A stretch of 64,000 nucleotides of DNA from Curtobacterium citreum (GTDB taxonomy: Bacteria > Actinomycetota > Actinomycetes > Actinomycetales > Microbacteriaceae). Below the pieces are notes generated by a model, which was not told the DNA's origin, ran no database searches, and was given only the letters and a program-made list of their open reading frames with translations. The position numbers and the translations under genes are program-made. Below, piece by piece: positions 6,764-63,973 of the stretch (the stretch's first letter is position 1; each line of letters opens with the position of its first letter). The stretch lies in the NCBI RefSeq assembly GCF_006715175.1, contig NZ_VFMQ01000001.1:3472001-3536000 (forward strand). Direction: 5' to 3'.

Positions 6764-7726
6764 TCAGGCGACACCTCGTGCGCTGCGCACCGGCCGGACC
6801 GCGCAGGGGAGGCCCGCTGCACGGAACCGTCTCGTCAGCGCGTCGAGGTCCCACAGGTCGCGCCATTCGATCCGGACGATGCGTCGGACGCCCGGCACCG
6901 TCAGCAGTGCCTCGTGTCGGCGCTTCTCGTCGATGAACACCTGGTCGGCGGTCCGGCCCGCGAGGAATCGCTCCTGCGTGTACTTCGCTCGGCCGTCCAC
7001 CTCGACGATGACGCCCTGCTCGGGGAACCAGAAGTCGACCTCGTACCGGCGCCCTCCGACGACGAAGGGTTGCTGGAGTACCGGCTTCGGCAGGCCCATC
7101 TCGCGGAACACGACCCGTGCCAGTGACTCGGCGGCCGAACCCGACCGCGGGTCGGCGAGCCCGACGGCACGAGTGGCGACGGCACGACCCGGGTCCTTCG
7201 CAGTGCCCCCGAGCGCCTGCACGATGCTCGCCCGCTCGACTCCGGCGCGCAGTGCAGCGTCGGCGACCACCACCGCCGCCCGGACGTCGCCGAGCAGGGC
7301 GATGTCCGCCACGGTCCTCGCGGCGGAGGTGAAGCGCACGCCGCCGTGCTCGACGAGGTGCGCGGACGGGACCGGTCTGGTGTGCAGGACCAGCCCCCTG
7401 GTGCCGCTCCGGTAGTGCGACTTCGGGACGGTGAGGTGCACGTCGTCCGGCCACGGACCCGGCAGGGGCAGTCCGTGCACGGCGACGGCCGAAGCATGGG
7501 AGCCGACAGCGGCGACGCTCCGTCGTCCCAGGCGGGCGAAGATGCGGGTGACGTACCGCCGGCGCGGACCGGCGGCCTCCCAGTCCGCCCCACGGACGAA
7601 CGCGTTCGGTCCGACGCGGACGAGACGGTCGGGGCCGTCGGACGCGGCCCGGCGCCGCAACGTGGCGCCGGACCGGCCAGCGTCCTGCAGCGGGCTCGCC
7701 CGGAAGATCGCGAGTGGTGTCTCCAT
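6764..7726 (-). CDS. AbiEi-like / DUF559 nuclease-fold protein, copy 1
   Basis: A 320-residue protein. The N-terminal half resembles the AbiEi-type antitoxin/regulator region (VGSHASAVAVHGLPLPGPWP, later SAARTVADIALL). The C-terminal part carries a PD-(D/E)XK-like core: E200 in a helix, D231 in YEVDFWFP, then VEVDGRAKY (E242, D244, K248) and EKRR at 267-270. This pattern is typical of DUF559/Vsr-like domains. No AbiEii nucleotidyltransferase toxin gene is adjacent. The ATG at 7726 is preferred; a longer frame starts inside the repeat region. A paralogue lies at 62928. Its upstream gap holds GATCCGCGCG repeats. The function is not established. Confidence 0.8.
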   Translation of the reverse strand: METPLAIFRASPLQDAGRSGATLRRRAASDGPDRLVRVGPNAFVRGADWEAAGPRRRYVTRIFARLGRRSVAAVGSHASAVAVHGLPLPGPWPDDVHLTVPKSHYRSGTRGLVLHTRPVPSAHLVEHGGVRFTSAARTVADIALLGDVRAAVVVADAALRAGVERASIVQALGGTAKDPGRAVATRAVGLADPRSGSAAESLARVVFREMGLPKPVLQQPFVVGGRRYEVDFWFPEQGVIVEVDGRAKYTQERFLAGRTADQVFIDEKRRHEALLTVPGVRRIVRIEWRDLWDLDALTRRFRAAGLPCAVRPVRSARGVA

Positions 7727-12143: not shown

Positions 12144-13094
12144 TCAGTCCACCTCCGGCTTCAGTGCCTTGATGTAGATGATCGAGAAGACCGCGCCGAC
12201 CACGAGCAGGATCGTCGCGATCGCGGTCCCGAAGCCGAGCTGCGAGAACTTGAACGCCTCCTGGTACGCCAGGATCGGCAGCGTCGACGAGTTCGTACCG
12301 GGGCCGCCGCCCGTCATCACGAAGATGAGCGTGAAGACCGACAGCGTCTGCAGCGTCGTGAGCATGAGGTTCGTCGAGATCGACCGGCGGATGACCGGCA
12401 GGGTGATGTAGACGAGTCGCTGCCAGCCGGCCGCGCCGTCCATCTCGGCGGACTCGGTGATCTCCTCGGGGACCTCCTGCACGGCGGCGGAGTAGACGAG
12501 CATCGAGAACGCGGTGCCGCGCCAGATGTTCGCGAGGATCACGGCGAGCATCGGGTACGTGTAGAGCCAGTTCGGCCCGCTGATCCCGATCGAGGCCAGG
12601 AACGTGTTGAGCGTGCCGGTGTCGTTGAAGAACGCGTACGCCGCGAACGAGGCGACGATCTCCGGCAGGACCCACGCCGCGACGACGAACGTGCCGACGA
12701 TCGCGCGGACCACCTTGTTCGCGCTGCGCATGAGGAGCGCCAGGCCGAGCCCGAGGACGTTCTGGCCCACGACCGCCGAGGCGAGCAGGAACACGATCGT
12801 CAGGACGACGGACTTCGGGAAGTCCGGGTCCTGGAAGAGCTCGACGTAGTTCTGCAGCCCGACGAACTGCTGGTTCGCGGCGCTCGCGCCGGTCAGCGCG
12901 GAGTTGGTGAAGGACCCGTAGAACGACGAGATGACGGGGCCGAGCAGGAAGATGACGAGCAGGACGACGGCCGGCAGGAGCGGGACCGCTCGGCTCGCTC
13001 TCCGCAGGGAGCGCCGCCGACGCGGCGTCGGCGGATCGGTGCGCTTCGGCGCACCGGGTGCCGACAGCGTCGGCGCGAGGGGGGTGCTGGACAC
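12144..13094 (-). CDS. Carbohydrate ABC permease (MalF-like)
   Basis: A 316-residue permease with an N-terminal basic tail and six membrane segments. The loop EITESAEMDGAAGWQRLVYI is the EAA coupling motif. The GTG start at 13094 is chosen because AAAGG lies nine bases upstream, the same leader layout as the binding-protein gene at 4251. A longer reading would extend through the palindrome at 13147. No ATPase gene is in the operon, as is usual for CUT1 systems that share a general MsiK-type ATPase. Confidence 0.9.
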   Translation of the reverse strand: MSSTPLAPTLSAPGAPKRTDPPTPRRRRSLRRASRAVPLLPAVVLLVIFLLGPVISSFYGSFTNSALTGASAANQQFVGLQNYVELFQDPDFPKSVVLTIVFLLASAVVGQNVLGLGLALLMRSANKVVRAIVGTFVVAAWVLPEIVASFAAYAFFNDTGTLNTFLASIGISGPNWLYTYPMLAVILANIWRGTAFSMLVYSAAVQEVPEEITESAEMDGAAGWQRLVYITLPVIRRSISTNLMLTTLQTLSVFTLIFVMTGGGPGTNSSTLPILAYQEAFKFSQLGFGTAIATILLVVGAVFSIIYIKALKPEVD

Positions 13095-60853: not shown

Positions 60854-62709
<1,856 letters not shown>

Positions 62710-62747: not shown

Positions 62748-62813
62748 GAGACGCCCCCGAACGCGCGAGACGCCCCCGAATCCGGGGGCGTCTCGTCTGT
62801 TCGGGGGCGTCTC
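62748..62813. terminator. Nested double hairpin of GAGACGCCCCCG repeats after guaB
   Basis: Outer arms GAGACGCCCCCGAAC (62748-62762) and GTTCGGGGGCGTCTC (62799-62813) are 15-bp perfect complements. Inside, GAGACGCCCCCG (62767-62778) and CGGGGGCGTCTC (62783-62794) form a 12-bp stem with a 4-base loop. Either left copy can pair with either right copy. It lies 38 bases after guaB and should terminate it. Confidence 0.85.
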
Positions 62814-62927
62814 ATCGTCACCAGGCCGTGTTGCGTCGTCCTCCACCACCCCACCTGGACGGGAGGCGCTCCACAGGTCCGTCCCGTTCGCCACCGACCG
62901 ACGTGTGGTCGCGTCAGTGTGGTCGCC

Positions 62928-63824
62928 ATGACATCGATCCCCACCTTCCGGCCCGGCCGACCGGTGGTCGTGCGCCGTCCCGCTGACCTGGCAGACCCGG
63001 TCCGGCTGTTCCACGGCGCAGCTGTCGAGCGCCGGGAGTGGGAGGCCCTGGACGCGCTCGGGCGACGGCAGTTGGTCGTGCGGTCCCGCATCGCTGCCCT
63101 GCAACGCCGCGTGGTCGCATCCCATCGGTCCGCCGGGGCACTCTGGGGGCTTCCAGAACTCGGTCGGTGGGACTCGCGGCTGCACGTCGTCGACCCGGGC
63201 ATCGCCAAGACCCACGTCGGGCGCGGCGTCGTCCGACACGCGGGTCAGATCGCCTCGGACGAGATCGCCGAGCTCTCGGGGACGCCCGTGACGTCCCTGC
63301 TGCGGACCGTGACCGACATCGCGCACACCGTTCCGCTCCGGCACGGTGTCGTCGTCCTCGACCACGTCCTGCACACCGGGCACATGGACCGTCCGGCACT
63401 GCAGCGAGCGTTCGACCAGCGCGCGGGTCGGCGCGGCAACCGCGTGGCGAGGTCTGCACTGGACCTGGCCGACGCCGCGTCGGAGTCGCCCGGTGAGTCG
63501 AGCAGCCGTGTCACCATGCGGGACCTCCGTGTCCCACCACCGATCCTGCAGCAGGAGTTCGCGACGGACGCCGGACGTTTCCGGGTCGACTTCTGGTGGC
63601 CGGACGTCGGGGTCGTCGGCGAGTTCGACGGTCGCGTCAAGTACGACGACCGGGACGTGCTGTGGGCCGAGAAGCGACGGGAGGACGCGCTGCGACGACT
63701 CCCCCAGGTGTCCGGCTTCGCGCGGTGGGGCATGCGCGAGGCAGGCGACCCCGTCCTCCTCGCCCACGTGCTCCTGGCAGCGGGCGTGCCGCTCGGACGC
63801 GGGTGGGCGGCGCGGCCCAGGTGA
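62928..63824 (+). CDS. AbiEi-like / DUF559 nuclease-fold protein, copy 2
   Basis: A 298-residue paralogue of the protein at 6764. The N-terminal part has HRSAGALWGLPELG and TSLLRTVTDIAHTVPL, as in AbiEi-like regulators. The C-terminal core repeats the nuclease pattern: E190, D221 in FRVDFWWP, GEFDGRVKY (E232, D234, K238) and EKRRE at 248-252. No AbiEii toxin gene is visible nearby. The ATG at 62928 is chosen; a GTG three codons upstream is also open. GAGACGCC repeats lie on both sides of the gene. Function unknown. Confidence 0.8.
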   Translation: MTSIPTFRPGRPVVVRRPADLADPVRLFHGAAVERREWEALDALGRRQLVVRSRIAALQRRVVASHRSAGALWGLPELGRWDSRLHVVDPGIAKTHVGRGVVRHAGQIASDEIAELSGTPVTSLLRTVTDIAHTVPLRHGVVVLDHVLHTGHMDRPALQRAFDQRAGRRGNRVARSALDLADAASESPGESSSRVTMRDLRVPPPILQQEFATDAGRFRVDFWWPDVGVVGEFDGRVKYDDRDVLWAEKRREDALRRLPQVSGFARWGMREAGDPVLLAHVLLAAGVPLGRGWAARPR

Positions 63825-63831
63825 CGCCCGG

Positions 63832-63973
63832 GAGACGCCCGGGAGACGCCCCGCGGTGCTCGAGACGCCCCCAGATGCTCGAGACGCCTGCGCCCAAGGC
63901 GGCGTCTCGGCGGGAAGGCGGCGTCTCGACGGGAAGGCGGCGTCTCGACGGGAAGGCGGCGTCTCGGAAGGAC
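63832..63973. repeat. GAGACGCC array with four 19-base tandem units
   Basis: Four GAGACGCC copies (63832, 63843, 63862, 63881) face four GGCGTCTC copies (63901, 63920, 63939, 63958). The second group is a tandem of the 19-base unit GGCGGCGTCTCGACGGGAA (63898-63973, the last incomplete). The two halves are complementary and can fold on each other. The array begins seven bases after the nuclease-like gene. Confidence 0.85.

Follow-up and report, generated by a model that had tools for sequence, protein, structure and literature searches.

In the genome of Curtobacterium citreum (assembly GCF_006715175.1, contig NZ_VFMQ01000001.1), a gene for a nuclease-type protein is found between two arrays of short inverted repeats. 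The stretch analysed, referred to here as the window, encompasses 64,000 nucleotides (nt), bases 3472001-3536000 of this 3.61-Mb single-contig genome. The gene is an open frame from ATG on the + strand (62928..63824), coding for 298 amino acids, and is a free-standing intergenic gene downstream of a guaB-like gene on the same strand (61207..62709, +), which we take to be guaB, encoding IMP dehydrogenase. This conserved neighbour marks the chromosomal slot, and lies upstream in the same orientation in all 27 loci of the guaB slot. The same count disposes of an apparent gene inversion at this slot, a suspicion that came from minus-strand loci that had not been flipped.

In the upstream array (62748..62813), two copies of GAGACGCC face two of GGCGTCTC and make a nested hairpin in the gap that separates guaB from the nuclease gene; the downstream array (63832..63965) sets four copies of the former against four of the latter. 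A preliminary description of this DNA had the gene bracketed by four repeat copies upstream and eight downstream, and the window count bears this out: there are 14 copies of GAGACGCC or its complement, 12 in the two arrays and two as singletons elsewhere. The total by itself is at chance level for a GC-rich window, with a shuffle mean of 12.97 and 41 of 100 shuffles reaching 14. The unusual features of the arrays are the clustering of the copies, their converging arms and a pitch of 19 nt (20 nt across the centre, with one 11-nt step at 63832-63843). Folded as DNA, the upstream array gives one long hairpin of -40.4 kcal/mol (z -11.05), and the downstream array is less striking (z -2.72).

The predicted model of the protein is AbiEi-like in its N-terminal half, approximately residues 10-182, and resembles the nucleases Vsr and I-Bth0305I in its C-terminal half, approximately residues 185-289. 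It looks, from this model, like an AbiEi-type DNA-binding half fused to a nuclease half of the Vsr/homing-endonuclease type. Residues S187, E190, D221, G235 and R251 are invariant in 32 members of the family, and E232 and D234 are nearly so. Foldseek alone returned no match at E<=0.001 for the model of the window protein, and the protein has no Pfam match at E<=0.01, so that it matches neither REase_MTES_1575 (PF18741) nor DUF559 (PF04480); at the same threshold, the former is matched by 9 of the 32 family members and the latter by 3. The earlier label of an AbiEi/DUF559-type nuclease is therefore upheld for its two halves, as far as the predicted model goes, but not for a Pfam DUF559 match of this protein. 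The gene also evolves rapidly, with a median identity of 59% to the protein encoded in the window, the adjacent guaB being at 91.7-98.5%.

The central observation is that the relatives of this gene are also found between matching repeats. A homologue search yielded 105 match rows in 20 genomes, from which the removal of three (second pieces or a fragment) left 102 loci. A search for the closest relatives added 21 more, and 121 of the resulting 123 gave a gene by tblastn (the exceptions being L141 and L146). Both flanks could be scored for 117 loci, with L081, L084, L134 and L149 cut by contig ends. For each gene, the 350 nt upstream were compared with the 350 nt downstream, and flanks were called matched if the score exceeded 19, the highest value among the first 79 controls. 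The controls comprised 275 intervals resembling open reading frames (ORFs), which are not annotated genes, from 28 stretches of 20 kb. Matched flanks were found around 69 of the 117 homologues and around 4 of the 275 control ORFs (Mann-Whitney p 9.5e-23). Without 19 of the added close relatives, which makes for the fairer set, the figure is 52 of 98, made up of 34/76 within the genus and 18/22 outside it. The comparison of homologue flanks with those of other genes, proposed in the preliminary description as the way to check the association, thus comes out strongly in its favor. A search of the phylum with one locus per genome gave 14 matched loci in 29, a figure that has no per-genome control and includes L226 and L227, which were already counted. 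Four further named loci, two from Frigoribacterium and one each from a Microbacteriaceae and a Micrococcus metagenome-assembled genome, gave two matches, both in Frigoribacterium. The matched segments are inverted in 53 of the 69 genes and direct in the remaining 16. By chromosomal slot, matched flanks surround 22/25 of the scored genes in slot 0, 12/13 in slot 1, 8/11 in slot 2, 5/7 in slot 4 and 2/2 in slot 9.

Some of the misses lie close to the threshold, with L023, L024 and L136 all scoring 18.5, and the miss at L091 is an artefact, the gene having been read past its stop, as hairpins are present on both sides. Around some relatives in other families of the order, including L016, L150 and L017, long hairpins are replaced by short arrays of GTGATCATGCA or CGACGATCACGC units. 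The window itself holds a paralogue of about 40% identity (6803-7645, - strand) with a flank score of 11.5, which is within the range of the controls, and no matched repeats. Among the controls, two ORFs outside the family, in another actinobacterial genome (L294, 4643-7264), have strongly matching flanks, with scores of 59 and 40.

Within the family, the type of repeat follows the protein. The 69 matched genes fall into 33 repeat groups, 25 of them with a single member, and none of the 61 pairs of paralogues from the same genome share a repeat family. Across these genes a repeat family is shared by 53% of pairs at 50-60% protein identity, by 73% at 60-80% and by all pairs over 80%; in a Mantel test of repeat sharing against protein similarity, 0 of 2000 permutations reached the observed association. 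The genes of the genus occupy ten chromosomal slots that are held by at least two loci each. For pairs within the same slot, the repeat is shared by 1/154 at less than 50% protein identity, by 49/85 at 50-60% and by 78/97 at 60% or more. For pairs in different slots, the numbers are small, with sharing in 0/6 at 50-60% and in 2/4 at 60% or more. The idea that the chromosomal slot determines the repeats was rejected, as different proteins in the same slot have different repeats.

This relationship is most easily followed at the guaB slot. Genes of clade A, present there in 18 genomes of the genus, have GAGACGCC-type repeats (with up to one mismatch) upstream in 18 of 18 cases and downstream in 15 of the 16 loci that can be read, the exception being L086. 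Genes of clade B in the same slot have a different hairpin, AAACGCAAC, on both sides in 7/7, and a single locus, L090, has a third type of repeat. On quick trees, repeat type requires two changes on the gene tree, which is the minimum, and eight on the guaB tree, which is no fewer than for shuffled labels (mean 7.3); at least four of the latter are forced by well supported branches. Two genomes, G022 and G023, reveal the edges of such a swap. Their sequences agree at 94% until 3 nt beyond the stop codon of guaB, and again at 87% just outside the downstream repeat; between these edges the two genomes differ both in the gene (48% identity of the proteins) and in the repeats. From these edges together with the discordance of the trees, repeat-gene-repeat therefore appears to be exchanged as one unit at fixed chromosomal slots. 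Elsewhere, in slot 2, the L027, L099 and L105 genes, which belong to one clade, are inverted relative to their neighbours when compared with another clade that has another repeat family.

The repeats are also dispersed beyond the gene. The preliminary description reported no such cluster elsewhere, which holds within the window but not across the genome, where 17 further arrays were examined. These have steps of 18-20 nt or twice that, and were placed relative to genes called with a simple codon model. Left out were an array at genome position 995329, on account of its other spacing, and pattern hits at 1191928, 2458019 and 2938035. Of the 17 arrays, 11 lie between convergent genes, 5 between tandem genes and 1 between divergent genes, with none inside a gene, and the array pattern read backwards has no hits genome-wide. 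In the 60 genomes of the genus, the number of hairpins goes with the presence of the gene, where the hit counts include nested pairs and the tests are uncorrected for relatedness. More than 15 GAGACGCC hairpin hits are found in 18/18 genomes with the clade A gene vs 8/42 without it (Fisher 1.7e-9), and clade B hairpins are found in 7/7 genomes with the clade B gene vs 3/53 without it (Fisher 3.1e-7). The gene itself remains single-copy: at E<=1e-50, each of 26 genomes had exactly one match. These dispersed copies are the evidence for an action in trans, and this evidence is correlative.

Several of the genomes that depart from this pattern can be looked at individually. Genomes G007, G041 and G043 have a clade B gene at the slot and few clade B hairpin hits (1, 4 and 1, respectively), as if a clade B newcomer had replaced clade A. 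In G046 and G021, a solo A array is found at the slot. Inspection by eye located solo A arrays also in G042 and G020 and solo hairpins resembling those of clade B in G049 and G055; it also indicated an apparent truncation of the gene by the end of a contig in G029 and only a partial gene match in G011. At one intergenic site in the closely related genomes G006 and G012, hairpins of two families occupy the same place (L216 at about 12718-12805, L191 at about 1470-1609), which suggests shared landing sites for different repeats.

The link between the gene family and the repeats is not a matter of chance, and the enzyme and its repeat probably form a functional pair. We consider it rather likely that the gene and its repeats constitute a repeat-nuclease cassette, an independent counterpart, with an unrelated enzyme, of the repetitive extragenic palindromic (REP) sequences and their REP-associated tyrosine transposases (RAYTs). 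AbiEi proteins bind inverted repeats, and for this reason the AbiEi-like half would be expected to bind the inverted repeats of its own cassette, which has the form inverted-repeat array, gene, inverted-repeat array. The nuclease half would nick or cut at the repeats, and repair or copying at the cut would spread them to other intergenic sites, so that the repeats multiply as the gene stays single-copy, as in REP/RAYT. The protein may thus bind, cut or spread its repeats. A broader proposition, to which we give slightly less than even weight, is that this is a second, independently evolved repeat-spreading system in the Actinomycetota, in which many AbiEi-Vsr nucleases would each mobilise their own inverted-repeat family, with exchangeable cassettes at fixed slots seeding non-autonomous hairpins by a homing-like cut-and-copy process.

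A number of observations weigh against this interpretation. At the threshold used, 48 of the 117 homologues have no matched flanks; matched flanks surround 0/25 genes in slots 3, 6 and 7, 1/7 in slot 5 and 1/4 in slot 8. Repeats of this kind are therefore not universal in the family, nor required by all its members. In the unmatched clades, either the repeats have been lost or the association is confined to part of the family. The 8 of 42 genomes without the clade A gene that keep more than 15 hairpin hits are a further difficulty, as a clade A relic at the slot does not account for the hits in G008, G030 and G055. For clade B, G026 and G028 contain 14 and 8 hairpins, respectively, with no clade B gene at E<=1e-50. 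In a swap, the flanking repeats travel with the gene by physical linkage alone. In another repeat family, two genomes of about 94% identity have 13 hairpin sites in common and are unlike at 5 of 18; these differences count in favor of the main reading, yet they could be deletions by replication slippage, palindromes being prone to deletion. Finally, neither a duplication of the target site nor a defined product of insertion was seen.

Of the other explanations, autoregulation deserves the most attention, although we regard it as unlikely. In this scenario the AbiEi-like half regulates the expression of its gene by binding the flanks; the nuclease has another target, such as DNA of phages or plasmids, and the scattered copies have a separate origin. 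However, the repeats are also present at the 3' end of the gene, 11 of the 17 other intergenic sites separate convergent genes, a setting in which a promoter would not be expected, and the number of repeats goes with the presence of the gene. Less probable again is that the hairpins are ordinary bidirectional terminators, carried as passengers when cassettes are exchanged by homologous recombination through the conserved neighbours. The same predominance of convergent sites fits such a role. Furthermore, by eye, a simple terminator-like hairpin follows guaB in 17 of the 30 genomes regarded as being without the gene, and three of these hairpins (L262, L268 and L274) contain GAGACGCCCC; a terminator may thus have been the origin of the repeat, or have been captured by it. 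Terminators nevertheless leave unexplained the matched hairpins on both sides of the family genes, the clade-specific sequences, and the gene-linked number of dispersed copies.

It is very improbable that a RAYT or an IS200/IS605-type transposase encoded elsewhere in the genome has spread these repeats as REPs. The architecture, extragenic location and palindromes do resemble those of REPs as described in PMC2817692, but the RAYT/IS200-type domain Y1_Tnp (PF01797) was matched in 0/60 genomes of the genus, that of C. citreum included, with 5 of 14 control genomes positive. RAYT-driven repeats were rejected on this basis, the exception being an HUH enzyme that falls outside the model. A chance association of two arrays with one gene is more remote still. 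In its favor, only this gene among six family members of its own genome stands at GAGACGCC arrays, and the flanks of four others have no copies; yet two of those four paralogues (L028 and L106) have their own, different flanking repeats. The flank survey of the homologues led to the rejection of chance, and the slot comparison, the clade A and B loci and the tree tests speak against it as well.

The repeat-nuclease cassette can be set beside several known systems. With REP/RAYT and REPINs it has in common a gene in single copy between palindromic repeats, most of them inverted to each other, and, with REP/RAYT, repeats that are dispersed extragenically and co-vary with the gene, an abundance that follows gene presence, and a fast-evolving gene, the REP features being those given in PMC2817692 and PMC3116915; rayt genes are likewise described as fast-diverging in the former. 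The differences are in number, the clade A pattern being hit 16-71 times in a genome compared with the more than 100 copies stated there to be usual for REPs, and in the enzyme, which is predicted to be an AbiEi plus Vsr-like nuclease and not an HUH Y1 transposase. The locus is not a RAYT member, because the defining enzyme, PF01797, was searched for and not found. The likeness to REP/RAYT with an unrelated enzyme, raised in the preliminary description, thus gains from the matched flanks, from the way the repeat tracks the protein and from the absence of PF01797 matches, with the unmatched homologues standing against it.

The Vsr-like homing endonucleases, such as I-Bth0305I, belong to a group named EDxHD in PMC6083498, and share the nuclease fold, here on the basis of the predicted model. 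In contrast to these, the gene studied here is free-standing at conserved intergenic slots, and it is the repeats that multiply while the gene stays single-copy. The likeness to the AbiE type IV toxin-antitoxin system is limited to the AbiEi-type antitoxin and the N-terminal half, with the nuclease half as an addition; the AbiEii toxin (PF08843) had no match in the C. citreum genome and had matches in only 13/60 genomes of the genus. MTES_1575_REase is classed as a Vsr-family restriction endonuclease in PMC3710099, the passages of which that were consulted are silent on flanking repeats, and the window protein differs from REase_MTES_1575 and DUF559 in matching neither model. The association of repeat and nuclease appears undescribed in the open-access literature, as judged from titles and the starts of abstracts, with subscription journals and preprints largely outside this coverage.

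For palindromic repeats that are dispersed in a genome and linked to a single dedicated family of enzymes, the model is REP repeats with their RAYTs. The cassette described here would follow the same logic with an unrelated nuclease, in a genus whose 60 genomes have no match to a RAYT-type transposase. If this is correct, it would provide a function for a large group of actinobacterial proteins that are labelled at best as AbiEi or DUF559-type, and which have matches in 47 of the 119 phylum genomes searched. It would also explain families of intergenic hairpins, and would offer many natural pairs of protein and site from which to learn how such nucleases read DNA.
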